From NCBI GenBank assembly GCA_021154785.1, contig JAJKHX010000114.1:1-34197 (forward strand): DNA of 34,197 nucleotides, in the 5' to 3' direction. Position 1 is the stretch's first letter. The number at the start of each line of letters is the position of its first letter. This DNA comes from Nocardiopsis sp. GTDB lineage: Bacteria; Actinomycetota; Actinomycetes; Streptosporangiales; Streptosporangiaceae. Positions 1,258 to 16,596 of this stretch are shown piece by piece. The translations under genes were made by a program, and so were the position numbers. The notes beneath the pieces were generated by a model that was not told where the DNA came from, did no database searches, and saw nothing but the letters and a program-made list of their open reading frames with translations.

Positions 1258-2091
1258 TCAGGTCCGGGCGGGGCCCCCAGACCAGGCGGCCAGGGCCGCG
1301 CCCGCCCACTCGGCGTGCAGGCGGGCGAACAGGGCGGCGGCCGTGGCGCCGGCCCACGGCGCGGGCAGGAACTGGGCCGGCAGGCCGGGGTCGACCCACG
1401 GGAACCGGCGCCAGGCGTGCACGAGGTCGATAACGCGGACGAGCGGGTCGGGCGTGACGTCACCGCCGAACGCCGTGATGAACTCGTCGTACTCCCGGGT
1501 CAGCTCGTCCAGGTCCCAGGCGCTGCCGACCATCGCGGCCAGCGCGCTGCCGCCCTGGTACTCGGCCGTGAACAGGTAGCCGTCCGGCAGGCCGGCCTCG
1601 GCGAGGACCTGGAGCACCTCGCCGCCGCGGTCGCTGCGCGGGCTGACCCAGACCCCGGGCATCACGCTGCCGAATCCGGCCCAGCGCAGCCGCGTCCTGA
1701 GCACGTGCCGGGCGGCGCGCTCGGTCTCCGGAGCGCGCGCGATCACGACGGTCCAGCGCCCGTCCCAGTCCGCGGCGGCCGCGGTGAAGCCGAAGATGCG
1801 CTCGGTGCCGTCCCGCAGCAGCCGCTCGGCGGCCGGGGTGAGCCGCCACCGGGTCCGCCGCCCGATCCGCTCCGGGCTGAGCCAGCCGTCGGCGGCGGTG
1901 CGCATCAGCGCCTGCCTGGCCGCCTTCTCCTCGACGCCCAGCCGGCCGAACACGTCGATGAACGCCGACGTCCAGGCCTCGCCGCCCGTCGGCAGGACCA
2001 GCTCGCCGAGCACGGTGAACAGCACGCTCCGGGCGCTGTCCGCGCCCGCGGCGTGGCGCCGCGGGAGGGCGGGCTGCTCGGTGTCGGTCAT
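1258..2091 (-). CDS. PaaX family transcriptional regulator
   Basis: PaaX-like N-terminal winged helix (SVLFTVLGELVLPTGGEAWTSAFIDVFGRLGVEEKAARQALMRTAADGWL) and C-terminal domain; divergent from an aromatic-CoA operon. Confidence 0.85.
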   Translation of the reverse strand: MTDTEQPALPRRHAAGADSARSVLFTVLGELVLPTGGEAWTSAFIDVFGRLGVEEKAARQALMRTAADGWLSPERIGRRTRWRLTPAAERLLRDGTERIFGFTAAAADWDGRWTVVIARAPETERAARHVLRTRLRWAGFGSVMPGVWVSPRSDRGGEVLQVLAEAGLPDGYLFTAEYQGGSALAAMVGSAWDLDELTREYDEFITAFGGDVTPDPLVRVIDLVHAWRRFPWVDPGLPAQFLPAPWAGATAAALFARLHAEWAGAALAAWSGGPART

Positions 2092-2100
2092 GGCAAACTA

Positions 2101-2145
2101 AATACTACGAACTCTTGACGTTCAACTCAAGATTTGTAGAGTATT
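2101..2145. promoter_or_regulatory. AT-rich imperfect palindrome with overlapping divergent promoters (operator between paaX-like gene and boxC)
   Basis: CTTGA(2114-2118)/TCAAG(2127-2131) core and AATACT/AGAGTATT outer arms; + strand TTGACG-16 nt-TAGAGT; - strand TTGAGT-17 nt-TAGTAT. Confidence 0.6.
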
Positions 2146-2170
2146 GAACATCGGCAGGAAGGAACCGGCC

Positions 2171-3871
2171 ATGCCCGACGCGACGAACACTGCGGCGACG
2201 AACAGCGAGGCGGGCGAACCGCGGGTCGAGTTCCGGGTCAGCCCGGACCAGTACCGGCACTGGAAGCTGTCGGCCGACGGTCCGGTCGCGACCCTGGTGA
2301 TGGACGTCGACGAGCAGGGCGGCCTGGTTCCCGGCTACGAGCTCAAGCTGAACTCCTACGACCTCGGCGTCGACATCGAGCTGTACGACGCGGTGCAGCG
2401 GCTGCGCTTCGAGCACCCCGGCGTGCGCACCGTCGTGATCACCAGCGGCAAGCCGAAGATCTTCTGCGCCGGGGCCAACATCCGCATGCTGGCCGCCTCG
2501 CCGCACGGCTGGAAGGTGAACTTCTGCAAGTTCACCAACGAGACCAGGAACGGCATCGAGGACGCCACCGCGAACTCCGGCCAGACGTACCTGGCCGCGG
2601 TGAACGGCACCGCCTCCGGCGGCGGCTACGAGCTGGCGCTGGCCTGCGATCACATCATGCTGGTCGACGACCGGTCCTCGGCGGTCTCACTGCCCGAGCT
2701 GCCGCTGCTCGGCGTGCTGCCGGGCACCGGCGGGCTGACCCGGGTCTCCGACAAGCGGCACGTGCGGCGGGACCTGGCCGACTACTTCTCGACCAAGTCC
2801 GAGGGCATCGGGGGCAAGAAGGCGGTTCAGTGGCGGCTGGTCGACGAGGCCGTGCCGCGGCCCCGCTGGGACGAGACCGTCGCGGAGCGGGCCGCCGAGC
2901 TGGCCGCGCGCTCCGGCCGCCCGCCGGACGGCACCGGCGTCACGCTGAGCCCGCTGGCCAAGACCCGCGACGACGACGCGATCAGCTACCGATACGTCAC
3001 CGCCCGGCTCGACCGCGACGCGGGAAAAGTCGATATAACGGTAAAAGGCCCGCCTGGCGACCCGCCGGCCAGCATCGGCGACGCCCGGAGCGCGGATTTC
3101 TGGCCGCTGGCCATGACCCGCGAGCTCGATGACCTGATCCTGGACCTGCGCACCAACGAGCCGGACCTCGGCACCTGGCTTTTCCGCACCGAGGGCGATC
3201 CGGCCCTGGTCCTGGCCTACGACGAGTTCCTGCTCAGTAACAAGGACGACTGGTTCGCCAACGAGGTCCTGCACTACCTCAAGCGAACCCTGCGGCGCCT
3301 CGACGTCACCAGCCGCAGCCTGATCGCGGCGATCGAGCCGGGCAGCTGCTTCGCCGGGTCGCTGCTCGAGCTGGCCCTGGCCGCCGACCGCTCGTTCTCA
3401 CTCGCCGGGATCTTCGAGGACAAGGACCCGGACGCCACCCCGGCCGCCATCACCGTCGGGAACCTCAATACCGGCCCGCTGACCATGAGCAACGGGCTGA
3501 CCCGGCTGCAGGCCCGGTTCTGGGGCGACGAGGCCGGCTACGAGGCGGCCGCCAAGCGCAAGGGCGAGGCACTGGAGGCCGAGGACGCCGCCGACCTGGG
3601 CCTGATCACGTTCGCGCCGGACGACATCGACTGGGACGACGAGCTGCGGATCACGACCGAGGAACGGGCCAGCTTCAGCCCCGACGCCCTGACCGGCCTG
3701 GAGGCCAACTACCGGTTCGCGGGTCCCGAGACGATGGAAACCAAGATCTTCGGCCGGCTGACGGCCTGGCAGAACTGGATATTCAACCGGCCCAACGCGT
3801 CGGGCCCGGACGGCGCGCTGCGCCGGTTCGGCACCGGCCAGCGGGCCGTCTTCGACCGGAAGCGAGTCTGA
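2171..3871 (+). CDS. boxC: Benzoyl-CoA-dihydrodiol lyase (BoxC), 2,3-epoxybenzoyl-CoA dihydrolase
   Basis: Enoyl-CoA hydratase-type repeats characteristic of BoxC (VEFRVSPDQYRHWKL..., SGKPKIFCAGANIRML, NWIFNRPNA); ATG 2171 preceded by aggaagga RBS. Confidence 0.9.
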   Translation: MPDATNTAATNSEAGEPRVEFRVSPDQYRHWKLSADGPVATLVMDVDEQGGLVPGYELKLNSYDLGVDIELYDAVQRLRFEHPGVRTVVITSGKPKIFCAGANIRMLAASPHGWKVNFCKFTNETRNGIEDATANSGQTYLAAVNGTASGGGYELALACDHIMLVDDRSSAVSLPELPLLGVLPGTGGLTRVSDKRHVRRDLADYFSTKSEGIGGKKAVQWRLVDEAVPRPRWDETVAERAAELAARSGRPPDGTGVTLSPLAKTRDDDAISYRYVTARLDRDAGKVDITVKGPPGDPPASIGDARSADFWPLAMTRELDDLILDLRTNEPDLGTWLFRTEGDPALVLAYDEFLLSNKDDWFANEVLHYLKRTLRRLDVTSRSLIAAIEPGSCFAGSLLELALAADRSFSLAGIFEDKDPDATPAAITVGNLNTGPLTMSNGLTRLQARFWGDEAGYEAAAKRKGEALEAEDAADLGLITFAPDDIDWDDELRITTEERASFSPDALTGLEANYRFAGPETMETKIFGRLTAWQNWIFNRPNASGPDGALRRFGTGQRAVFDRKRV

Positions 3872-3876
3872 CCGCC

Positions 3877-5310
3877 ATGACCACAACCGCCGACTACGGC
3901 GAGAAGATCCCGAACAACGTCCGCCTGCACGAGGACCGGCGGCTGCAGCGGGCCCTGGAGTCCTGGCAGCCGAACTTCCTCACCTGGTGGCAGACGATGG
4001 GACCGACGCTGCCGACCCAGGACGTCTACCTGCGCACCGCGGTCAACGTCGGCCGGGACGGCTGGGCGCAGTTCGGCCACGTGCCGATGCCGGAGTACCG
4101 CTGGGGGATCTTCCTGGCCGAGCGGGACCCGGGCCGCACGGTCGGGTTCGGCGAGCACAAGGGCGAGCCGGTGTGGGACAAGGTACCGGGGGAGTACCGG
4201 GCCGAGCTGCAGCGGCTGATCGTGATCCAGGGCGACACCGAGCCCGCCTCGGTGGAGCAGCAGCGCAACCTGGGCGCCACCGCGCCCAGCCTGTATGACC
4301 TGCGCAACCTGTTCCAGGTGAACGTCGAGGAGGGGCGGCACCTGTGGGCGATGGTCTACCTGCTGCACGCCTACTTCGGCCGGGAGGGGCGGGAGGAGGC
4401 CGAGGAGCTGCTGCACCGCAACTCCGGCAGCGAGGACTCGCCGCGCATCCTGGGCGCGTTCAACGAGGAGACCCCGGACTGGCTCTCGTTCTACATGTTC
4501 ACGTACTTCACCGACCGGGACGGCAAGTACCAGCTCGGCACGCTCAAGGAATCGGCGTTCGACCCGCTGTCGCGGACCTGCGAGTTCATGCTCAAGGAGG
4601 AAGCGCACCACATGATGGTGGGCACCACCGGCGTGGACCGGGTGGTGCAGCGCACCGTCGAGGTGATGCGCGAGCACGACACCGCCGACGTGGGCGGCCT
4701 CGGCGCGATCCCGCTGCCGGTGATCCAGAAGTACCTGAACTTCCACTACTCGGTCTCGCTCGACCTGTTCGGCGGCGAGACCTCCACGAACGTGGCCAAC
4801 TACTACACCGCCGGGATCAAGGGCCGGTGGATGGAGGACCGGCGCAAGGACGACCACAAGCTGGGCAGCGACTCGATCATGGTGGACGCGCTCGTCGGCG
4901 ACGCCAGTGGTGAGCCGAGCATTGGGCAGACCGAGGTCTCCGCACTGGTCGGCCTCAACACCGACCTGCGGCGCGAGTACATCGCCGACTGCCAGGGCGG
5001 CGTCAAGCGGTGGAACCGCATCCTGGAGGAGGGAGGCGTGACGCAGCGGCTCAAGCTGCCGCACGCCGCCTTCAACCGCAAGGTCGGCGCGTTCGCCGGG
5101 ATCGAGGCGACGCCGGACGGCGAGAAGATCTCCGCGCCGGAGTGGCAGCGCCGCCAGGACGAGTGGCTGCCCAGCGCGGTCGACAAGACCTACGTCCGGT
5201 CGCTGATGCGGCCGGTGCACGAGCGCGGCAAGATTGCCGCATGGATCGCACCGCCGCGCAACGGCATCAACGGCCAGCCGTTCGACTACGACTACGTCCA
5301 CCTCGCCTGA
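3877..5310 (+). CDS. boxB: Benzoyl-CoA 2,3-epoxidase oxygenase subunit (BoxB)
   Basis: BoxB-like diiron ferritin-type sequence (DYGEKIPNNVRLHEDRRLQRALESWQPNFLTWW, NVEEGRHLWAMVYLL, EEAHHMMVG); 5 bp after boxC. Confidence 0.9.
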   Translation: MTTTADYGEKIPNNVRLHEDRRLQRALESWQPNFLTWWQTMGPTLPTQDVYLRTAVNVGRDGWAQFGHVPMPEYRWGIFLAERDPGRTVGFGEHKGEPVWDKVPGEYRAELQRLIVIQGDTEPASVEQQRNLGATAPSLYDLRNLFQVNVEEGRHLWAMVYLLHAYFGREGREEAEELLHRNSGSEDSPRILGAFNEETPDWLSFYMFTYFTDRDGKYQLGTLKESAFDPLSRTCEFMLKEEAHHMMVGTTGVDRVVQRTVEVMREHDTADVGGLGAIPLPVIQKYLNFHYSVSLDLFGGETSTNVANYYTAGIKGRWMEDRRKDDHKLGSDSIMVDALVGDASGEPSIGQTEVSALVGLNTDLRREYIADCQGGVKRWNRILEEGGVTQRLKLPHAAFNRKVGAFAGIEATPDGEKISAPEWQRRQDEWLPSAVDKTYVRSLMRPVHERGKIAAWIAPPRNGINGQPFDYDYVHLA

Positions 5311-5329
5311 GCTGCCTCCGGGGGACCCG

Positions 5330-6937
5330 ATGAGCGCCGCGGAGTTCAACGCCTGTGACTACCTGCTCGACCGGCACGTCCGGGAGGGGCGCGGGCACCG
5401 GCTCGCGCTGACCGGGCCGGGCGGCGACGTCAGGTACGCCGAGCTCGCCGGCCGGGTCGCGCGGGCCGCCGTGGGCCTGCGCGGGCTGGGCCTGCAGGCC
5501 GAGCAGCGCGTGGTCATGGTGATGGCGGACTCGCCCGAGTTCGTCGTGGTGTACCTGGCGGCCATGCGGATCGGCGCAGTGCCGGTGCCGGTCTCGACCA
5601 TGCTGCGGGCCGGCGGCATCGCGGAGATCCTGGCCGACTCGCGGGCCCGGATGGTCGCCGTCAGCTCGGCGTACCGGGAGGTCGTGGCGGCCGCGCTGGG
5701 CTTCCCCGGCGTCAGCGAGGTGATGGCGGTGGTCACCGATGAGGCGGGTGAGCCGGTGGCCGGGCTGTCTACCACCGCGCTGGACGGGCTGGCTGCGGAC
5801 ACGCCGGACCAGATCTATCCCACGACCGCGGACTCCCCGGCCTTCTGGCTGTACACCTCCGGGACGACCGGGACGCCCAAGGGCGCGATGCACCGGCACG
5901 GCTCGGTCCAGGTGGTGTGCGAGACCTACGCCACCCAGGTGCTCGGCATCACCCCGGAGGACCGGTGCCTGTCGGCGGCCAAGGCGTTCTTCGCCTACGG
6001 CCTGGGCAACTCGGTGCTGTTCCCCCTGTCCGTGGGGGCGGCCGCCGTACTCGAGCCGGCCCCGGCGCGGCCAGACCTTATGGCCGAACGGGTCCGGTCC
6101 TACGCCCCGTCCCTGTTCTTCGCCGGGCCGACGTTCTTCGCCGGCATGCTGCGCGCCGGCCTGCCGGGCGACGCGCTGGCCGGGGTACGGCTGGCCGCCT
6201 CGGCCGGCGAGGCCCTCCCGGCCGCGCTGTACCAGCGGTGGACCTCGCACTTCGGGGTGGACATCCTCGACGGGATCGGCATGACCGAGATGCTGCACAT
6301 CTTCCTGTCCAACCGGCCGGGCCAGGTCAGGCCCGGGACCACCGGTGTCCCGGTGCCCGGCTACGACCTGCGCGTGCTCGGCGAGGACGGGCAGGAGGTC
6401 CCGCCGGGGACGCCCGGGACGCTGTTCGTCCGGGGCGCCTCGGCCGCCACCGGGTACTGGTCCCGCTACGACGCCTCCCGCCAGGTGTTCCAGGGCGAGT
6501 GGCTGCGCACCGGGGACACCTACGTGGTGGACTCCGACGGGTACCACGCCTGCCTGGGGCGTACCGGGGACATGCTCAAGGCCAGCGGCATCTGGGTCTC
6601 ACCGGCCGAGGTCGAGGCCCGGCTGCTGGCCCACGCGGACGTGGTCCAGGCCGTGGTGGTCGCCGCGCACGACGCCGACGGACTGGAGAAGCCGGTGGCG
6701 TTCGTCCAGCTCGGCCCGGGCGGCACGGCCGACGAGGAGACGCTGATCGGGTTCTGCCGGGACGGCCTGCCGTCGTTCAAGAGGCCCCGCCGGATCGTGT
6801 TCGTGACCGAGTACCCGACGACCGCCACCGGCAAGATCCGCCGGGTGGAGCTGCGCGCGCAGGCCGCGACGATCATGGCGGCGCCCCTGCAGGCGCAGGC
6901 GCCCGCCGATCCGGTCCCGCCGCGACCGGGCCACTGA
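5330..6937 (+). CDS. Benzoate-CoA ligase family protein (ANL superfamily)
   Basis: AMP-binding motif YTSGTTGTPKGAMHRH, core motif DGYHACLGRTGDMLKASGIWVSP, PTTATGKIRR acetylatable Lys motif; operonic with boxCB. Confidence 0.9.
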   Translation: MSAAEFNACDYLLDRHVREGRGHRLALTGPGGDVRYAELAGRVARAAVGLRGLGLQAEQRVVMVMADSPEFVVVYLAAMRIGAVPVPVSTMLRAGGIAEILADSRARMVAVSSAYREVVAAALGFPGVSEVMAVVTDEAGEPVAGLSTTALDGLAADTPDQIYPTTADSPAFWLYTSGTTGTPKGAMHRHGSVQVVCETYATQVLGITPEDRCLSAAKAFFAYGLGNSVLFPLSVGAAAVLEPAPARPDLMAERVRSYAPSLFFAGPTFFAGMLRAGLPGDALAGVRLAASAGEALPAALYQRWTSHFGVDILDGIGMTEMLHIFLSNRPGQVRPGTTGVPVPGYDLRVLGEDGQEVPPGTPGTLFVRGASAATGYWSRYDASRQVFQGEWLRTGDTYVVDSDGYHACLGRTGDMLKASGIWVSPAEVEARLLAHADVVQAVVVAAHDADGLEKPVAFVQLGPGGTADEETLIGFCRDGLPSFKRPRRIVFVTEYPTTATGKIRRVELRAQAATIMAAPLQAQAPADPVPPRPGH

Positions 6938-6947
6938 AGGAGCCACC

Positions 6948-7376
6948 ATGACGCTGACCTGGATCAAGGAGAACTCGCCGCGCTGGGACGCCGACAAGCA
7001 GCGGATCTTCAGCCCGGCCGAGCTGGCCGCGACCGGCCTGGGTGAACCGCGGCCCGGCGAGCCGGTCGCGGACGAGTGGTGGCGGGTGACCGACGGCGCC
7101 GAGGTCGCCGGGTACGGCTGGCTCGACACCGAATGGGGCGACGCCCGGATCACCTTCGTCGTCGCGCCCGGACAGCGCGGCCGCGGCGTCGGCGCCTTCA
7201 TCCTGGAGCACCTGGAGGACGAGGCCGCCGCGCGGGGCCTGAACTACATCTACAACGTGGTGCCCGGCTCGCACCCCGACGGGGCGTGGATCCGGAACTG
7301 GCTGTCCATGCACGGCTTCCACGAGGCCTCCCGCGGCCAGCTCCGCCGCCAGGTCGCCACCCAGATCACCCGGTAG
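6948..7376 (+). CDS. GNAT family N-acetyltransferase
   Basis: Acetyl-CoA binding motif A FVVAPGQRGRGVGAFILEHL; 10 bp downstream of ligase with ggag RBS. Confidence 0.85.
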   Translation: MTLTWIKENSPRWDADKQRIFSPAELAATGLGEPRPGEPVADEWWRVTDGAEVAGYGWLDTEWGDARITFVVAPGQRGRGVGAFILEHLEDEAAARGLNYIYNVVPGSHPDGAWIRNWLSMHGFHEASRGQLRRQVATQITR

Positions 7377-7525
7377 AGCCCTCCGGGGGCTGCCTGGTGT
7401 ATCAGAACCCGCGCCGGGCGCTCCGGACATACGACGGGCCAGCACGAGACGCCGTCGGCGCCGGCCCGGGTCCAGACGCCTGCGGGGTGAGCGGGTTCGC
7501 CCGCCGCCACCCCGTCACCACGTCC

Positions 7526-7555
7526 GGCCCCGCCGGTTAGGGCCCCGGCGGGGCC
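7526..7555 (+). terminator. Strong GC-rich hairpin, probable terminator of the box operon
   Basis: GGCCCCGCCGG-ttagggcc-CCGGCGGGGCC, 11-bp perfect stem, followed by AT-rich gggcaaaatatat. Confidence 0.6.
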
Positions 7556-7672
7556 GGGCAAAATATATCGCGCCACGGGTGTATCAGGAATGCCCGGAGG
7601 CTCCTCCGCTTTGAGAAGCAGCAGGTATCACCCCGAACGGCCCATAACTATCGCCCGACGCGAGGAGCCGCG

Positions 7673-8047
7673 ATGTACGTCGGCGATCTTCCGCTCACCA
7701 GCCTGGCCGGCCCCGCCGTGGCCGGGAACCGCCTGGCCTGGCTGAGCTACGACTCCGCGCTGGAACCGGTCCGCTGCCTGCGCGGCGATCCGGGTCAGGC
7801 ACGCGTCCTGATCTTCACCACGACGCCGATGTCGCTGGAACTCGAGGTGATGGCCGGCCACGTGGCCGGCCAGATCGTCCCGCCGGGGCCGGGGGAGATC
7901 GTGGTGGAGACCCCGGACGGTACCAGCGTCCGGATCGAGGCCGATGACATCGGCTTCTTCGACTTCGCCGGCCTGCCGCGCGGCCAGATCCGGCTGCGCT
8001 GCGACACCCCGTCGGGGCGGCTGGTCACCGACTGGATCTGCCTGTGA
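7673..8047 (+). CDS. Small beta-rich (carboxypeptidase-regulatory/Ig-like) protein of CHAT module
   Basis: C-terminal AGQIVPPGPGEIVVETPDGTSVRIEADDIGFFDFAGLPRGQIRLRC resembles regulatory beta-sandwich repeats; convergent with the CHAT gene (17-bp gap). Confidence 0.6.
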   Translation: MYVGDLPLTSLAGPAVAGNRLAWLSYDSALEPVRCLRGDPGQARVLIFTTTPMSLELEVMAGHVAGQIVPPGPGEIVVETPDGTSVRIEADDIGFFDFAGLPRGQIRLRCDTPSGRLVTDWICL

Positions 8048-8064
8048 CTGCGCCCGGCCCCGGG

Positions 8065-10686
8065 TCAGGCCCCCAGGGCGATGAAGGAGTAGGCGGTGGC
8101 CTGGGCCACCGGGTCATCGCTCATGGCCTGCCGGGCCCGGGTCAGGGCGGCGGCCAGTCCGGTGCCGGTCCGGAGCTGATCGTGCAGGGCGGTCATGAGG
8201 GGGACGGTGGCGGGGTCGTTGACCGGGACGACGCTGGCGATTACGCCGGCCGAGCCCAGCGAGATCAGGGCGCTGACCAGGCCGAGGAGCTCATCGGCGC
8301 CGACCGCTACGCTGACGGCCGAGCTGCAGCTGGACAGCACGACGTGGTACGGAGCCTGTTTGAGCCGTTCGAGGTCGTAGACGGTCAGCGGCCCGTCCGC
8401 CAGCTCGATCGCGGAGAACAGCGGGCTGTCATCCCGGAACGTGCCGTGCGCCGCCATGTGCACCAGCCACGCCCCGTCGATGGCGGCCATCACCCGGTCG
8501 GCGGTCGCGTCGCCATCGGCCAGGACGGTCGCGTCCGGGTACTGCCCGGTCAGGGCGCTGACCTCGGCGTCGCCGGTGAGCAGCCGCGGGCCGCCGACCA
8601 GGACCACCCGGTTCTCGTCCGGGCGGGCGGCCTGCCGGGCCCGGAGCCATGCCGATGCCGAGGGCGACACGGCCGTGGGCCGGTCTCGCAGCGAGGGCAT
8701 CATTCCCCACGGCACGGCGTGCAGTTTCCCGGTCGGCACCACCACCAGCGGCCCGTCGCCCAGCAGTCCGACCGACTCACCCAGCAGGCTGGCCTCCAGG
8801 CGGCGGCCGATCTCGGTCAGGTCGAGCCGGTGGGTACCGCGGCCGGCGCCCTCGCGGCGCAAGGCGAACAAGGCGTGGGCCAGCGCGCGGGTGGCCGTCT
8901 GGGTCGGGCCGACGTGAACCAGATGCAGCCGTCCGCCGGTGACCACGACGGCGTGCAGCTGGCCGTCGACGTCGGTGAGTTCCAGCAGGCCGGTCTCGCC
9001 GAGCTGGCCAACGAGGTCGGCGGCGCGCAAGGCCTCGGCCTGTCCGGCTGCCACCGCGGGTGTACGCAGAACCCGCTGCCGGACAGCGGTTTCAAGCCGG
9101 CGGCGTTCCCGCTCGAGCGCCGGGGCTGCGGCCCGGCTGTCCAGGGCGCTGTCCAGGCGGGTGGCGACGTTCCGCAGGGCGGCCAGGTCGGCCATCAGCT
9201 CGCTGTCGGGCGGCGGGCGTACGGGGGTGATCCGGAGCACCGTGCCGCGCCAGCGCTCGCTCCATTGCAACAGCAGCCTGGCGTCGGCCCGGCGCACGGC
9301 GTGCCGCAGCGCCATGCCCGCCAGAGCCGCGCCGTTGGCGGTGGCCAGCGTGCGCAGTTCGGTGGCGCCGAGCGTCTGCAAGTGCAGGTCGAGCAGGGCC
9401 AGGCCGCGGTCGCACGCGGCCAGCATGCCCCGCCAGTTCTCCTCGGCCTCGCACCAGGTGGCCCGGGCCAGCCAGCCCACGCTGCGGACGCGCGGCTGGC
9501 CCCGGTGCCGGGCGGCCGACGCGGTCTGCAGATGGCGTGCCGCCTCGTCGCGCCGGCCCCGGGCCAGCGCGACCCGGCCGGTGAGCAGGTGCGCGTCGAC
9601 GGCCCGGGCCGGATCGAGCTCGTCCAGCTGCGCGGTCACCCGTCGAGCCGCCTGCAGCAGCACCGCCGAACGATCCTCACCCTCCGCGAACCGGCAGAGC
9701 AGCAGGGTCAACTCGGCGCGGGCCGCCCACCACGGGCGCTGCTGGCGGCGGAACAGCCGGAAGGCTTCGGTGCTGCGATCCTGCGCGAGGCTGAAATCAC
9801 GGGTCGCGGTGGCGGCGACGGCGGAGGAATACAGCAGCTCGGCGCGCCTGGTCGCCGAGCCATGGTCCTGCTCGATCCTGGCCACCGCGGCATTGACCTC
9901 GCGCAGGGCATCTTGGGCCAGGCCGGCCGCCAGCAGCACTGTGCACTTATGGACGAACAGGTCGGCCATGAAGATGTCGAGCCCGTCCAGCAGGGCCTGG
10001 GCATGATCGAGATAGGCGAGGGCGGCGGGGAGGTCGCCTCGGATGTGCGCGGCCAGTCCGCGCTCCAGGCGGGCGAAAGCGTAGTCTGCTCGCTGGCCGC
10101 ATTCGAGCCACAGCGTCTCGACCTGGGCGTAGTCGCGGTCGGCCCGTTCGATATCGCCCATGGCGAGGTATACCGCTGCGCGGTAGTGCAGCGCACGCGC
10201 CTCCCAGACCAGGTCGCCTGTGCCGGACAGCAGGCTCACTGCGGCCCGGGCGTCCTGCAGTGCCTCGGTGTTACGGCCGAGGACAAGAAAGGCGGCGACC
10301 CTGCGGATCAAGATGCGACCCGTGAGGACGCCGCCGCCACTGCGCTCCACCAGGGAGTCCAGGACCGACAGGCCACGCCGGGGCTGGCCGGAGTGCATCA
10401 GGGCCATGCCCAGGCTGGCCGAGACGTCAGACTCCCGATCCGGGTCCCCGGCCTGGCGCGCGAACTGGCGCGCGGCCTTGAACTCCTTGATCGCCTGACC
10501 GATATCGCCAAAGTCCCTGAAGACCACGCCGGCCGCCTGGTGCGCGATCGCCGCTTGTGCCGGCGACGGGTGCCCGGCCAGCACCTCACGGGCCGCGGTG
10601 AGCGCCTCTGGTGGCCGCGACAGGGCCAGGGCCAGCAGCTTGTCTGGCTCCCAGGCCACCGAGGCGACATCAGGCACGACCGGCAT
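8065..10686 (-). CDS. TPR-repeat CHAT domain protein (caspase/separase-like protease)
   Basis: N-terminal ~500 aa TPR-like helices; C-terminal CHAT: HMAAHG (His codon 8446-8448) and VVLSSCSS (Cys codon 8326-8328). Confidence 0.9.
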   Translation of the reverse strand: MPVVPDVASVAWEPDKLLALALSRPPEALTAAREVLAGHPSPAQAAIAHQAAGVVFRDFGDIGQAIKEFKAARQFARQAGDPDRESDVSASLGMALMHSGQPRRGLSVLDSLVERSGGGVLTGRILIRRVAAFLVLGRNTEALQDARAAVSLLSGTGDLVWEARALHYRAAVYLAMGDIERADRDYAQVETLWLECGQRADYAFARLERGLAAHIRGDLPAALAYLDHAQALLDGLDIFMADLFVHKCTVLLAAGLAQDALREVNAAVARIEQDHGSATRRAELLYSSAVAATATRDFSLAQDRSTEAFRLFRRQQRPWWAARAELTLLLCRFAEGEDRSAVLLQAARRVTAQLDELDPARAVDAHLLTGRVALARGRRDEAARHLQTASAARHRGQPRVRSVGWLARATWCEAEENWRGMLAACDRGLALLDLHLQTLGATELRTLATANGAALAGMALRHAVRRADARLLLQWSERWRGTVLRITPVRPPPDSELMADLAALRNVATRLDSALDSRAAAPALERERRRLETAVRQRVLRTPAVAAGQAEALRAADLVGQLGETGLLELTDVDGQLHAVVVTGGRLHLVHVGPTQTATRALAHALFALRREGAGRGTHRLDLTEIGRRLEASLLGESVGLLGDGPLVVVPTGKLHAVPWGMMPSLRDRPTAVSPSASAWLRARQAARPDENRVVLVGGPRLLTGDAEVSALTGQYPDATVLADGDATADRVMAAIDGAWLVHMAAHGTFRDDSPLFSAIELADGPLTVYDLERLKQAPYHVVLSSCSSAVSVAVGADELLGLVSALISLGSAGVIASVVPVNDPATVPLMTALHDQLRTGTGLAAALTRARQAMSDDPVAQATAYSFIALGA

Positions 10687-10749
10687 TTACGAATCGTATT
10701 TAGTGTTTCAGCATTCCGTCGAGACCATCACCTGAGCAGAGAGGCATAC

Positions 10750-12042
10750 ATGCCTGTAAACGACCGCGCGAGGGCGCAGGCCCAGCTGATCTTTAACGGA
10801 CATCCCGGCGCCGCGGCGCACCCGGCCCCCGACCGCTGGGAGGATGTGGACGACTTCGATTACCTCTACCGTGAGTACGCCGTTCTCGTCCGCGCCGAGG
10901 ACGTGGAGGAGGTGACCGGCGAGCTGGGGCGGATCTTCGAGGACGCCGGCTACGGAGACGTCCCGGAGGGGGAGGCGCGGGACATCCAGCGCGAGCAGGT
11001 CAGCCGGGGCCTCGTCCGCCTGACCGTGCCGACCACACCGACACTGGTGCCGGACCTCATCGGTCGCCTCGACGCGGCTCTCGGGCCGGGGGTGGCCAGG
11101 CCCGAGCATAAGGTGTACGTCTGCCCGAATCCGTGTCCCGCCACCGAGCCGGGCGTGGTGCCGTCGGGCACCACCGAACCCGTCCCGCCGCCCGACCCTG
11201 CCCTGCGTGTGCCCTGGGCGGGAAACAACGGTAGCGGCGTCAACGTCAGCGTGATCGACACCGGGCTGATCCCGAACGCCGCCGCCGGTCACCCCTGGCT
11301 GGCCGGGGTGCAGGGCACGGCGGAGGAGCCGTACACCACCGACAGCGCCGGCGACTCGGTGATCGTCCCGTACGCCGGTCACGGGACGTTCGTCGCCGGC
11401 GTGCTGCGTTGCGTGGCTCCGAAGGCGTCGGTCTACGTCGAGCGGGCCTTCGACATCGCCGGCGCCGACTACGAGACCCGCCTGCTGGGCAGCCTGGAGG
11501 ACGCGCTCGCACGGGATCCGGACATTCTCGTATTCACCTTCACCTCCACCACCCACCGCGATCAGTCCCTGCATACCTTCGACGAGCTGTACGAGCGGCG
11601 CATTCGCAGCATCAAGGGCCTGGTCGTACTCGCCCCGGCGGGCAACGAAGGGTCGCCGCGCCTGCACTGGCCCGCCGCCCACCCGGGGGTGATCGCCGTG
11701 GGTGCCCTGGCCGCGAACTGGCGGGACCGGGCACGCTTCAGCAACTACGGCCGGTGGGTGGACGTGTACGCGCCGGGCGAGGATCTCGTCAACGCTTTTC
11801 CGGAGGGAACATACGTGTGCACCGAGCCGCCCGATGTCGGGCAGCGCCGGCACTTCCACGGAATGGCCCTGTGGAGCGGAACATCGTTCAGCACCCCGCT
11901 TGTCGCCGGGCTGATCGCCGCCCGGATGTCGCAGACGGGGGAGAACGCCAGCCAGGCCGCCGACGCGCTCCTGCGGCTGGCCGCCAGCCAGGCGATTCCC
12001 GGCGTCGGCCCGGTGCTCTATCCCGGCCAGGCCCTGTCGTAA
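10750..12042 (+). CDS. S8 family (subtilisin-like) serine peptidase without signal peptide
   Basis: Triad motifs VIDTGL (Asp 11257-11259), YAGHGTFVAGVL (His 11380-11382), GTSFSTPLVAG (Ser 11884-11886); ATG with agagagg RBS. Confidence 0.9.
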   Translation: MPVNDRARAQAQLIFNGHPGAAAHPAPDRWEDVDDFDYLYREYAVLVRAEDVEEVTGELGRIFEDAGYGDVPEGEARDIQREQVSRGLVRLTVPTTPTLVPDLIGRLDAALGPGVARPEHKVYVCPNPCPATEPGVVPSGTTEPVPPPDPALRVPWAGNNGSGVNVSVIDTGLIPNAAAGHPWLAGVQGTAEEPYTTDSAGDSVIVPYAGHGTFVAGVLRCVAPKASVYVERAFDIAGADYETRLLGSLEDALARDPDILVFTFTSTTHRDQSLHTFDELYERRIRSIKGLVVLAPAGNEGSPRLHWPAAHPGVIAVGALAANWRDRARFSNYGRWVDVYAPGEDLVNAFPEGTYVCTEPPDVGQRRHFHGMALWSGTSFSTPLVAGLIAARMSQTGENASQAADALLRLAASQAIPGVGPVLYPGQALS

Positions 12043-12061
12043 GCCCGGGCCAGGACGGGCC

Positions 12062-13771
12062 TCAGATAGCCTCCACTTCCGGGTAGGCGGGTTCCCACAT
12101 GGCCGCGCGGACCCGCTCGGCCAGTCCGTCGAGCGGCACCTCGGACAGCCCCTCGGCCACCGCGGCCCGGGCCACCGCCTCGCCCACCGCGGCGGACACC
12201 TCGCGCAGGCTGGTGACCGGCGGCAGCACGGCCGCGCCGGGACTGGTGACGTCGGCCAGCCCGGCCAGCGCGTTGGCCGCGGCGGCCAGCATGGCGTCGC
12301 TGACGCGGCGGGCCCGGGCGACGGTGACGCCGAGACCGAGGCCGGGGAAGATCAGCGCGTTGTTGGCCTGGGCGACCTGGTACTCGACCCCGCCGTAGCT
12401 CACCGGCGGGAACGGGCTGCCGGTCGCGATGAGCGCCCGGCCCCCGGTCCAGGCGATCAGGTCGGCGGCCTGGGCCTCGGAGCGGGAGGTCGGGTTGGAC
12501 AGCGGCATGATGACCGGCCGCTCGGAATAGCCGGCCATCGCGGTGACGATCGGCTCGGAGAACGCCCCGGGCTGGGTGGAGGTCCCGATCAGCATGGTGG
12601 GACGGGTCCGGGTCACCACCTCGGCCAGGCCGATGCACCCGTCCGCGTCACGCTCCCACCCGGCTACCTCCGCGGCGGTCCGGGCGTACGGCACCTGGAA
12701 GTCGCGCAGCGTCCCCGGGTAGCCCTCGGCGAGCAGGCCCTTGCTGCCGAGGGCGTAGAACCGGGTCATGGCCTCCGCCGGGCTGAGGCCGTCGTCGATC
12801 ATGACCTGCCGCAGCGCGTCGGCGATCCCGATCCCGGCCGTGCCCGCGCCGTGGATCACGATCACCTGGTCGCGCATCGCGGTGCCCGCGGCCCGGGTGG
12901 CACCCAGCGCGGCGGCCAGCACCACGGCGGCGGTGCCCTGGATGTCGTCGTTGAACGTGCAGCAGCTGCCGGCGTACTTCAGCAGGATCCGGCGGGCGTT
13001 GGCGGCGCCGAAATCCTCCCAGTGCAGCATCGCGTGCGGGAACAGCTTGGCCGCGGCGCTGACGTAGGCGTCGATCAGCTGGTCGTACCGCTCGTCCCGC
13101 ACCCGCGGGTGCCGGGCGCCCAGGTACATGTCCTCGGCCAGCAGGGCCTCGTTGTCGGTCCCGGTGTCCAGCACGACCGGGATGACCCGGCGGGGGTGCA
13201 GCCCGGCCGCCGCGGTGTAGACGGCCAGTTTCCCGTCCGCGATCGCGATGCCGCCCACCCCCCAGTCGCCGATGCCCAGGATGCCCTCGGAGTCGGTGGC
13301 GACGATCAGGTCTACCTCGTCGGCTTCCAGCCCGTAGTTGCGGAAGGCCGTCTCCACCTGGTCAGGGTGATCCACCGACAGGTACACCCCGCGCGGGCGG
13401 GCGAACTCCAGGCTGTACCGCTCGATCACGGTCCCGATCGTCGGGGTGTACACGATCGGCAGCATCTCGTGGATGTGCTCGGCCAGCAGCCGGTAGAACA
13501 GCACCTCGTTGCGGTTGCGTATCTGGCCGAGATGCAGGCTCTTGGCCAGGTCGTCAGGCTGGCGCAGGTACTGCGCGTAGACCCGGCGCAGCTGCCCCTC
13601 GATCGTCGAGACGCCGCCGGGCAGCAGGCCGGTGAGCCCGAGCGCCTCCCGTTCGGCCAGCGTGAAGGCGGTGCCCTTGTTGAGCATGGGCGAGAAGAGC
13701 ACCGAGGTGCCCCGCAGCCGGACCCTGGCTACCGTGCCGGTCTGGTCGAGCTCGAACGGACGATCTGGCAT
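12062..13771 (-). CDS. NAD-dependent malic enzyme
   Basis: LPIVYTPTIGTVIERYSLEFARPRGVYLS, VATDSEGILGIGDWGVGGI, FNDDIQGTAAVVLA, IHGAGTAGIGIADAL. Confidence 0.93.
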   Translation of the reverse strand: MPDRPFELDQTGTVARVRLRGTSVLFSPMLNKGTAFTLAEREALGLTGLLPGGVSTIEGQLRRVYAQYLRQPDDLAKSLHLGQIRNRNEVLFYRLLAEHIHEMLPIVYTPTIGTVIERYSLEFARPRGVYLSVDHPDQVETAFRNYGLEADEVDLIVATDSEGILGIGDWGVGGIAIADGKLAVYTAAAGLHPRRVIPVVLDTGTDNEALLAEDMYLGARHPRVRDERYDQLIDAYVSAAAKLFPHAMLHWEDFGAANARRILLKYAGSCCTFNDDIQGTAAVVLAAALGATRAAGTAMRDQVIVIHGAGTAGIGIADALRQVMIDDGLSPAEAMTRFYALGSKGLLAEGYPGTLRDFQVPYARTAAEVAGWERDADGCIGLAEVVTRTRPTMLIGTSTQPGAFSEPIVTAMAGYSERPVIMPLSNPTSRSEAQAADLIAWTGGRALIATGSPFPPVSYGGVEYQVAQANNALIFPGLGLGVTVARARRVSDAMLAAAANALAGLADVTSPGAAVLPPVTSLREVSAAVGEAVARAAVAEGLSEVPLDGLAERVRAAMWEPAYPEVEAI

Positions 13772-13873
13772 TGCGTCACCTCGTGTCCGGGCCAACGTGC
13801 GTGTGCCAAGAAGTAACACACGACGAACCCGTCGCGCACCCGGAGCCGGTGACGCGATGCCAGAAGCCGTCTC

Positions 13874-14503
13874 TCAGTCGAACGAGGGCTTGCGGTCCCT
13901 GCTCCGCTTGAGCTCGAAGAAGCCGTCGGTCCCGGTGACCAGCGCCACCCCGTCGTACAGCCGTCCGGCCGCCTCGCCGCGCGGCGCGGGCGTGATGACC
14001 GGGCCGAAGATGGTGTTCCCGGCGATGCGGATGACCGGGGTGCCGACGTCGATGCCGACCTGGTCGAAGGCCTCGTTGTGGGAGTCCTTGATGAGCTGGT
14101 CGAGCTCGTCGCTGTCCGCGGCGGCGGCCAGCGAGGCGGGCAGGCCCACCTCGGCCAGGGCCTCGGGGATCACCTGCGGGTCCTCACGACGGCCCTCGTT
14201 GTGGAGCCGGGTGCCGATCGCGGTGTACAGCGGCCCGAGGATGTCGGTGCCGCTGTGCTGGGCGGCGGCCGCGACGACCCGGATCGGCCCCCAGGCCTTG
14301 CTCATCCGCTCCAGGTACTCCTCGTTCAGGCCCTGGCCCTCATGCTGGATCAGGTTGAGGTAGGCCAGGGACATGATCCGCCAGTCGGTGCGCACCGGCC
14401 GGACCTTCTCGACCTCCAGCATCCAGCGGGAGGTGATCCAGGCCCAGGGGCACAGCGGGTCGAACCAGAACTGAACGTCTTCTCTTTCCGTCTGTTCCGT
14501 CAC
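13874..14503 (-). CDS. DsbA-fold oxidoreductase, mycothiol-dependent nitroreductase Rv2466c-like
   Basis: FWFDPLCPWAWITSRWMLEVEKVR... GTPVIRIAGNTIFGPVITPAPRGEAAGRL...FFELKRSRDRKPSFD closely resembles Rv2466c as recalled. Confidence 0.85.
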   Translation of the reverse strand: MTEQTEREDVQFWFDPLCPWAWITSRWMLEVEKVRPVRTDWRIMSLAYLNLIQHEGQGLNEEYLERMSKAWGPIRVVAAAAQHSGTDILGPLYTAIGTRLHNEGRREDPQVIPEALAEVGLPASLAAAADSDELDQLIKDSHNEAFDQVGIDVGTPVIRIAGNTIFGPVITPAPRGEAAGRLYDGVALVTGTDGFFELKRSRDRKPSFD

Positions 14504-14549
14504 GACCGCGCCAACCGCCGCCGGCGCGCCGCTATTCCCCGCCCCGGCC

Positions 14550-15344
14550 TCAGGACCCGGCGCCGCCGGACAGGACGAACCCGGTGACGGCCGCGGCCAC
14601 GTCGCGGTGCACGGTCTCGTTGAGGATGTCGTGGCGGGCCCCGGCGAACTCGGCCAGGCGGGCCCGCTTCAGCCGCCCGGCCCACTCCCGGGCGTGCCCG
14701 GCCGGTACCACCGGGTCCTCCGCGCCGTGCACGAACAGGACGGGCAGCGTCACCTGCCCGAAGCCGGCGGCCAGCTCATCCCAGGCCGCGGGGAGCACGT
14801 CAGCCAGGCTGCGGGCGCCGGCCGCGCTGGTGAACGCCAGCGGATCGTAGGCCAGCTCGTCCAGGTAGAACGGATCACCGGACAGGCCGGCCGGATCCAG
14901 GTCAAGGTCCGGGGCGTCAGCGTCGCCAAGCGCGACAACCCAGTCCAGCGGGGAGATCGCCGCTCCGGACAGGATGAGCCCCGCGTACCGGCCGGGGTCG
15001 CGGGCCGCCGACACGGCGGCGGCCGCCGCCCCGAGCGAGTGCCCGGCCAGCCAGACCGGCCGTCCCGGCTGGGCCGCCTCGGCGATGGCGGTCAGCCGGC
15101 GTCCGTTCTCCACCAGGTCGTCGATGGACCGGATGACGGCCCGGTCGCCGTCGGTGAGCCCGTGGCCGATCTCGTCGAGCGCCCACAGGTCGATCCCGGC
15201 GTTGTTCAGCGCGTTCCCGTACCGGTGGTACAGGCCTGAGTGCTCGCCGAAGCCGTGCAGGAAGACCACCGTCGCGGCGCTGGGGGCCGGGACGCGCCAG
15301 GCCTTGTAGTACACCTGTCCGGTTACTCCGCTGAAAGTGGGCAC
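14550..15344 (-). CDS. Alpha/beta hydrolase (monoacylglycerol lipase-like)
   Basis: FLHGFGEHSGLYHRY, GHSLGAAAAAVSA, FVHGAEDPVVPAGHAR; GTG start 15344 with AGGAG RBS. Confidence 0.85.
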   Translation of the reverse strand: MPTFSGVTGQVYYKAWRVPAPSAATVVFLHGFGEHSGLYHRYGNALNNAGIDLWALDEIGHGLTDGDRAVIRSIDDLVENGRRLTAIAEAAQPGRPVWLAGHSLGAAAAAVSAARDPGRYAGLILSGAAISPLDWVVALGDADAPDLDLDPAGLSGDPFYLDELAYDPLAFTSAAGARSLADVLPAAWDELAAGFGQVTLPVLFVHGAEDPVVPAGHAREWAGRLKRARLAEFAGARHDILNETVHRDVAAAVTGFVLSGGAGS

Positions 15345-15369
15345 GCCTGCTCCTGTCTTCTTACCGGCA

Positions 15370-16596
15370 CTATGTATTAATCGTGCCCGGGGCCGCCTCG
15401 TCAAGGGGGCGGGTGCGCTGATCTCGCCGCGTCAGGGCGGGACTACCCGGCCGGGCGGCGGGGAACGCGTGGCGGCGCGCGACCGCGACCGTGCCCAGCG
15501 CGGCGGCGCCGAACGCCAGCGTGACCCAGGGCAGGCCGGCCGGCCCGGCCCGGCCCAGGACCAGGCCGCCGGCCAGTGACCCGGCGGCGATGCCGGCGTT
15601 GTACACCGTGGTCTGCAGGGCGGTCGCCACGTCGGCGCGAGCCGGGCCGGCCGCGTCGATCAGCGCCGTCTGCAGCAGCGCCGGCGCCCCGCCGAACGCC
15701 GCGCCCCACAGCGCCACCGCGGCCAGCAGCGCGGCCGGCTGGCGCCCGGCCAGGCCCAGGGCCGTCATCGCCGCGGCGATCATGGCCATGGCGGTGAGCA
15801 GCGCCAGCCGCAGGTACCGGTCGGCGGCGATGCCGGCGATCCAGATCCCGGCCACGGTCGCCACGCCGAACACCAGCAGGACGAGCCCGGCCCGGCCCGG
15901 TGCGAAGGGGGCGAGGTAGGTGTACATCGCCTGGTGCCCGGTGAGCAGCAGCACGGTGGCGGCGAGCACGGCGGGCACGCCGGGTCCGGACGCCACCTGG
16001 CGGAGCGGGACCCGGCGGGCCGGGGGCTCGCCGCCGAGGGCGGGGACCTGGCTCCCGGTCCAGGGCACCAGCAGCAGCGCCACGGCCGCCAGCAGGCCGA
16101 AGACGGCCCGCCAGCCGAGCAGGCCGGCCAGCGCCGCCCCGGCCGGGATGCCGGCGGACAGCGCGACGGTGATGCCGCCCAGGACGACCGCGATGGCCCG
16201 GCCGCGCTGGGCGGCCGGCACCATCCGCGCCGCGTAGCCGGCCAGCATCGACCACAGGGCGCCGCCCATGACGCCCGCCAGCAGCCGGGCCGCGAAGGTC
16301 AGCGGGTACCAGGGCGAGATCGCGGTCACCGCGTCGAGCAGCGCGAAGCCGGCCAGCACCGCCTGCAGCACGGGCCGCCGGGGCAGCCCCCGCAGGGCCG
16401 CGGTGACCGGGATCGCGGCCAGCGCCGAGGCGACCGCGAACGCGCTGACCAGCAGCCCGGCCCGCGCCTCCGGCACGTGCAGGCCGCTGCTCAGCTGCGG
16501 GAGCAGGCCGGCCGGGAGCAGGTCGGTCGTCACGTCGGTGAAGGCCGCCGTGGCCAGGGCCAGCAGGCCCGCCCAGGGAAACGCGTCGGGAAGCAT
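15370..16596 (-). CDS. MFS transporter
   Basis: 12-TM hydrophobic pattern, MFS signature AARLLAGVMGGALWSMLAGYAARMVP. Confidence 0.85.
   Translation of the reverse strand: MLPDAFPWAGLLALATAAFTDVTTDLLPAGLLPQLSSGLHVPEARAGLLVSAFAVASALAAIPVTAALRGLPRRPVLQAVLAGFALLDAVTAISPWYPLTFAARLLAGVMGGALWSMLAGYAARMVPAAQRGRAIAVVLGGITVALSAGIPAGAALAGLLGWRAVFGLLAAVALLLVPWTGSQVPALGGEPPARRVPLRQVASGPGVPAVLAATVLLLTGHQAMYTYLAPFAPGRAGLVLLVFGVATVAGIWIAGIAADRYLRLALLTAMAMIAAAMTALGLAGRQPAALLAAVALWGAAFGGAPALLQTALIDAAGPARADVATALQTTVYNAGIAAGSLAGGLVLGRAGPAGLPWVTLAFGAAALGTVAVARRHAFPAARPGSPALTRRDQRTRPLDEAAPGTINT

Follow-up and report, generated by a model that had tools for sequence, protein, structure and literature searches.

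A TPR-CHAT and subtilisin-like protease locus in Nocardiopsis sp. as a probable reduced form of an ECF54-type sigma factor cassette

The window, by which we mean the whole 34,197-nucleotide stretch of Nocardiopsis sp. DNA analyzed here, carries three adjacent genes: an open reading frame (ORF) called on the forward strand for a small protein of 124 amino acids (7673-8047), a reverse-strand gene for an 873-residue TPR-CHAT protease (8065-10686), and a forward-strand gene for a 430-residue S8 peptidase (10750-12042). The positions and lengths of these ORFs, as well as the spacings of 17 bp between the 124-residue gene and the CHAT gene and of 63 bp between the CHAT and S8 genes, agree with those given in an earlier note on this DNA. 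A Pfam scan identified TPR repeats and a CHAT domain in the 873-residue protein (PF12770, E=2e-35) and a Peptidase_S8 domain in the 430-residue protein (PF00082, E=2.7e-22), and returned no significant family match for the 124-residue protein. Both proteases keep their catalytic residues, as the note had said: His747 and Cys787 of CHAT are invariant in an alignment of 25 sequences, and Asp170, His211, Asn299, and Ser379 of S8 are invariant in an alignment of 30. Neither protease has an apparent signal peptide on inspection by eye, again in line with the note. The N-terminal domain of S8 (residues ~38-123) resembles a subtilisin propeptide and precedes the catalytic domain (~160-425). The best fold matches of its AlphaFold2 model (pLDDT 91.3) are unprocessed pro-subtilisin E and pro-Tk-subtilisin, over ~415 columns; with such a predicted fold, S8 may be a zymogen.

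The genes that flank the trio are catabolic and housekeeping in nature, with benzoyl-CoA oxidation genes on the left and malic enzyme on the right. Positions 1258-7376 encode a PaaX-like regulator, an enoyl-CoA hydratase-like protein, a PaaA_PaaC-like oxygenase, and an AMP-binding ligase, a gene content resembling that of an aerobic benzoyl-CoA (box) catabolic operon. Among the neighboring ORFs scanned, we found no gasdermin, CRISPR effector, or other known defense gene.

Neighbor genes of the trio's homologs were examined in 20-kb stretches around the matches in relatives. Profiles for four families detected an ECF-type sigma factor, the small protein (hereafter SMALL), TPR-CHAT, and S8 together within a few kb in 52 out of 60 homologous loci, a proportion that is not an unbiased rate because the loci were picked by similarity to SMALL or S8. 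The fourth gene belongs to the sigma-70 family and is of the ECF type (TIGR02937, E=1e-26; Sigma70_r2 and r4_2). Within the same taxonomic order, SMALL matches occur in 76 of 151 genomes and S8 matches in 119 of 151, the latter count taking in more distant subtilases. The review PMC8999054, summarizing Huang 2015 and Casas-Pastor 2021, places carboxypeptidase, subtilase, and CHAT proteins in the neighborhood of ECF54 sigma factors in Actinobacteria. With its sigma factor assigned by this context rather than by ECF group models, the cassette appears to be of the ECF54 type, a kind of locus that is already known. The earlier note, which treated the trio as a module and named a lack of conserved co-occurrence as grounds for rejection, is not refuted on this point: the genes form a conserved module, as the joint occurrence of CHAT, S8, and SMALL with sigma and the co-variation of the CHAT and S8 trees (partial r 0.47) indicate. 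Its interpretation is partly supported overall, the usual sigma partner of the small protein and the chimeric, truncated state of the window copy having been overlooked.

The closest homolog of the trio that we found is locus L090 (genome G155), whose SMALL is 65% identical and whose CHAT is 71-72% identical to those of the window; the CHAT of L130 (Kibdelosporangium philippinense) is 61% identical. Both loci have the gene order of the window, plus a sigma gene before SMALL (sigma-SMALL / CHAT / S8). Sigma is missing from the window and from L083 and L109, which have CHAT, S8, and SMALL, and from L067 and L070, which have CHAT and S8, L070 being cut by a contig end. L083 (G149) and L109 (G060) represent a second, separate loss of sigma, in which a full-length SMALL comes immediately after S8 and the promoter motif described below lies upstream of S8. 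Other arrangements include a back-to-back pair of cassettes at L075 (G098, 3738-16125), whose SMALL genes lie end to end, and a second cassette type (L081, L082, and L110-L129), in which S8, sigma, SMALL, and CHAT share a strand and the TGTATCA motif is missing; this second type probably uses another promoter. A complete cassette with the motif is present in the 11.85-Mb Nonomuraea gerenzanensis record labeled “plasmid,” with its CHAT frame interrupted in the sequence as read. The genome of the window has another cassette on contig C319 (L065, G000:C319 9894-10441), whose sigma gene lies in two ORF pieces separated by a frameshift or stop; this may be a second cassette with a broken sigma or a contig error. 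In addition, positions 4051-4614 of MT838002.1, a 7.5-kb phage record from a human faecal sample, contain a CHAT stretch 36% identical to the window CHAT. Neither flank of the window is linked to the cassette in relatives, and flank synteny therefore gives no insertion date.

The structure of the small protein is best seen in the full-length SMALL of L090, whose AlphaFold2 model (pLDDT 88, mostly 93-98 across the sandwich) has helices at residues 7-24 and 26-45, followed by a nine-strand sandwich. The description “small beta-sandwich protein” in the earlier note, judged by this model of a full-length homolog, fits the part that the window has retained, but the window gene is truncated and chimeric. 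Against PF13620 (CarboxypepD_reg), the 124-residue protein falls below the cut-off (E=0.076), and weak matches occur in 23 of 44 SMALL family members, the best with E=1.8e-5. The “carboxypeptidase” of the ECF54 literature may consequently be SMALL itself, as a non-enzymatic CarboxypepD_reg-like beta-sandwich. At the sequence level, a SMALL profile searched against PDB sequences with E up to 10 found neither Csx30 nor any anti-sigma factor, and the fold search returned only generic beta-sandwiches and no anti-sigma fold. A relationship to Bap-type surface domains (weak, E=0.0027) or to Ig/FN3 folds was also considered and set aside, these matches being generic.

Comparison with L090 points to a composite origin of the 124-residue gene. 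DNA homology between the window and L090 starts abruptly inside SMALL, at window position 7733, and upstream of this point the window resembles the start of the L090 sigma gene, including the motif, the leader, the ribosome-binding site, the start codon, and the first codons. The leader with its ribosome-binding site GCGAGGAGCC (7607-7672, forward strand) is homologous to the L090 sigma-gene leader. Codons 1-23 (7673-7741, forward strand), which encode MYVGDLPLTSLAGPAVAGNRLAW and derive from a sigma N-terminus, align without gaps on MDHGDNPVSWLVDAAGSGNERAW of the L090 sigma factor and keep, in register, four residues that vary little or not at all in the sigma family (A15, G18, A22, and W23). 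The local alignment of the two regions scores 32.5 with the motif included, versus 23.5 for the best of 2000 shuffles, and the leader and first codons score 28.5 when the motif is excluded, versus a maximum of 21.5 in 2000 shuffles. Codons 24-124 and the stop codon (7742-8047, forward strand) encode the CarboxypepD_reg-like beta-sandwich of SMALL and lack the two N-terminal helices of the family; the exact junction, at ~7742, is uncertain by a few codons. Relative to L090, and calculated from coordinates, the missing piece spans ~665 bp and corresponds to sigma residues 24-191 and SMALL residues 1-53. Mapped onto the SMALL model, this loss takes away the hairpin of two helices and leaves the sandwich in place. 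The reading frame is restored across the junction, and the promoter and ribosome-binding site are kept. From this alignment, it appears that a single clean in-frame deletion took out the body of sigma and the SMALL helices, fusing sigma codons 1-23 to the beta-sandwich.

A sigma factor search of the window with filters off gave no match, and only the first 23 sigma codons remain there. A misannotated start hiding the N-terminus of SMALL was rejected, since the upstream frame has no SMALL-like residues and homology to the L090 SMALL stops inside the gene. We likewise rejected a relocation of the sigma gene within the same genome, where the best paralog shares just 48% identity with the L090 sigma; the assembly is incomplete (577 contigs, 74.5% complete), and an orthologous sigma may lie in the missing sequence.

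The promoter region kept by the window contains a recurrent motif, TGTATCA-N15-17-CTC. Two forward-strand copies lie upstream of the chimera, namely P1 (TGTATCA-N16-CTC, 7398-7423), an exact match, and P2 (TGTATCA-N17-CTC, 7580-7606), located 93 bp before the start codon and matching the L090 sigma promoter, whose copy lies 88 bp ahead of the sigma start. These are the only copies in the window, as opposed to a mean of 0.01 in shuffled sequences, with at least two copies in 0 of 100 shuffles; the divergent region between CHAT and S8 (10687-10749, no strand assigned) has none. Across the 60 loci (0.97 Mb), the motif is found upstream of the sigma operon in 26, and 28 of its 40 occurrences fall within the 400 bp ahead of a cassette gene, CHAT excepted, versus 0 of 7 occurrences upstream of cassette genes for five scrambled or reversed control patterns. 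Roughly half of the loci lack it, chiefly where all four genes run on a single strand. The genome of the window contains 25 motif sites, compared with one for the reversed control pattern, and 23 of the 25 are intergenic. These sites (L139-L163) are distributed over contigs C154, C190, C216, C72, C319, and others. The predicted targets include the C72 sigma operon and the C319 cassette; a graspetide-type precursor with an MvdD-like ATP-grasp ligase; and an FHA-P450 fusion, a CotH kinase, a glycosyltransferase, an NlpC/P60-like protein, and a fibronectin type III protein. Elsewhere in the order (150 genomes), the counts are near the control and show no excess on the scale of a regulon, which ties a large regulon to this genome rather than to the family. 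We therefore regard the 25 sites as a candidate regulon specific to this genome.

An overlap between the sigma gene and the SMALL gene, present in 36 of 50 loci, suggests coupled synthesis by analogy with sigma/anti-sigma pairs. Partial correlations of distance matrices are highest for SMALL-sigma (0.64), S8-CHAT (0.47), and CHAT-SMALL (0.34), the others ranging from -0.01 to 0.13 (sigma with CHAT, 0.13; sigma with S8, 0.10). Physical linkage contributes to these values, yet S8, which is often beside sigma, does not co-vary with it. The pattern fits a chain S8-CHAT-SMALL-sigma. A precedent exists in Csx29, a TPR-CHAT protease that cleaves the sigma inhibitor Csx30 and thereby frees the ECF factor CASP-sigma (PMC10028731). 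From this precedent, the gene overlap, and the co-variation chain, we infer that SMALL would bind sigma and hold it back, probably through its N-terminal helices, and that a signal sensed by the TPR part would switch CHAT on. CHAT, together with the pro-subtilisin S8, would then cleave or remove SMALL, and the released sigma would turn on its own operon and a regulon at TGTATCA-N15-17-CTC promoters. On balance, we consider it probable that the window carries an ECF54-type cassette reduced by the ~665-bp deletion from a parent that worked as such a sigma/SMALL/CHAT/S8 switch. We put forward more tentatively, as one possible reading, that the complete cassette is a CRISPR-free, Craspase-like switch in which CHAT, linked to a cytoplasmic pro-subtilisin, destroys a translationally coupled anti-sigma protein and so frees the ECF sigma factor, and that the window copy is a protease-arm derivative whose helix-less decoy has come under the promoter of sigma itself.

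In the window itself, which has no sigma gene in cis, the truncated beta-sandwich would be expressed from the kept sigma-type promoter by a paralogous sigma factor encoded elsewhere. Intact sigma genes of the same family are present in the genome on contigs C72, C461, C312, and C327, and together with the same motif at the C72 copy, they make expression of the chimera in trans possible. Such a product would no longer be able to restrain sigma, whereas it could still occupy CHAT and S8 as a substrate or decoy; the chimera could thus be a decoy substrate or a leftover. The retention of CHAT and S8 without a cis sigma at L083, L109, and L067 also makes a sigma-independent role of the protease pair possible. 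The cassette genes are under purifying selection averaged over the family, with dN/dS values of 0.27 for CHAT (window versus L090 and L096), 0.39 for S8, and 0.48 for SMALL (both window versus L090), values that are averages over a period longer than the possible age of the deletion. In relative-rate counts, SMALL changed somewhat faster on the window branch (13 versus 3 with one outgroup and 12-15 versus 7 with the others), and CHAT showed no acceleration (52 versus 52).

Other explanations of the cassette assign different roles to its proteins. In the proposal made for ECF54 in PMC8999054, sigma is controlled by proteolysis and no anti-sigma factor takes part; the proteases would then degrade sigma directly, SMALL would be a co-factor or substrate presenter, and loss of sigma would leave them with other clients. 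The lack of a recognizable anti-sigma domain in SMALL suits this proposal, as does the persistence of CHAT and S8 without a cis sigma at L067, L083, and L109. However, the gene translationally coupled to sigma is that of SMALL and not that of a protease (36 of 50 overlaps), SMALL co-varies most with sigma (0.64, versus 0.13 for CHAT and 0.10 for S8), and the “carboxypeptidase” of the literature may be a non-enzymatic CarboxypepD_reg-like protein, and we regard direct degradation as unlikely. The earlier note had labeled the trio a conflict or programmed-cell-death-like module, in which CHAT and S8 would cut each other and the small protein would act as inhibitor or trigger. TPR-CHAT proteases do act in Craspase (PMC10028731), the predicted fold of S8 is that of a pro-subtilisin zymogen without a signal peptide, and CHAT and S8 co-vary; nevertheless, the flanks are catabolic and housekeeping, no defense gene was seen among the neighbors scanned, the standard partner is a transcription factor, and the context described in PMC8999054 is ECF transcriptional signaling. 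A lone weak hit, confined to CHAT, among 50,697 phage records says little. We have abandoned this label and consider such a module very improbable.

Further alternatives concern the window copy alone. It might be a decaying remnant in which CHAT, S8, and the chimera lost their function after the deletion, as the loss of sigma and of the SMALL helices, the slightly quicker evolution of SMALL on the window branch, and the rearranged flanks would suggest. We judge this improbable in view of three open frames with intact catalytic residues, a deletion that restored the frame and kept the promoter and ribosome-binding site, and the unaccelerated CHAT. Finally, two loci could have been joined at ~7742 by an assembly error, with the trio normally accompanied by its sigma factor. 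The assembly is fragmented into 577 contigs and neither window flank adjoins the cassette in relatives, but the join is in frame, the sequences to either side match a single homologous locus and follow its order (sigma start, SMALL, CHAT), and the motif, leader, and ribosome-binding site are in register, all of which makes an artefact quite unlikely.

Among known systems, the TPR-CHAT activators of bacterial gasdermins offer a CHAT-type protease with repeats. Unlike these, the window CHAT has no adjacent gasdermin and is surrounded by SMALL, S8, GNAT, and malic enzyme genes, with sigma added in relatives. S8 shares its propeptide-like and catalytic domains with pro-subtilisins such as subtilisin E and Tk-subtilisin, but it has no apparent signal peptide, is predicted to be intracellular, and is genetically tied to CHAT. 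It matches IetS models weakly (E ~2e-5; NCBIfam score 21.9 versus a cut-off of 900), and it differs from IetAS in that no AAA ATPase (IetA) adjoins it.

The nearest likenesses are to Craspase/CASP (Cas7-11, Csx29, Csx30, and CASP-sigma) and to ECF54. As in the former, the gene for the TPR-CHAT protein of the cassette accompanies those for an ECF sigma factor and for a small protein that would take the place of the inhibitor, and the CHAT profile picks up Csx29 (E ~1e-5) as one of few CHAT proteins of solved structure. The cassette differs in having no CRISPR component (neither Cas7-11 nor any other Cas protein was found among the window ORFs scanned with Pfam, which covered part of the small ORFs), in adding an S8 pro-subtilisin, and in being chromosomal in many actinobacteria; moreover, SMALL is not detectably related to Csx30 in a sequence search of the PDB. 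With respect to ECF54, relatives of the window locus carry an ECF sigma factor, CHAT, a subtilase, and a putative carboxypeptidase or carboxypeptidase-regulatory-like protein, and the window itself has adjoining CHAT and subtilase genes; it differs in that sigma and the helical N-terminus of SMALL are gone and a sigma::SMALL chimera is present. Sigma cassettes with CHAT and subtilase are widespread in actinobacteria; according to PMC8999054, how they are controlled is a matter of proposal, and the “carboxypeptidase” has been counted as a protease. What our analysis adds is the anatomy of SMALL, a helical hairpin and a beta-sandwich encoded by a gene that overlaps the sigma gene, together with a candidate promoter motif for sigma. 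The parallel with Csx29, Csx30, and CASP-sigma makes the parent mechanism directly testable, and the deletion in the window represents a natural mutant that parts the protease arm from the sigma arm.
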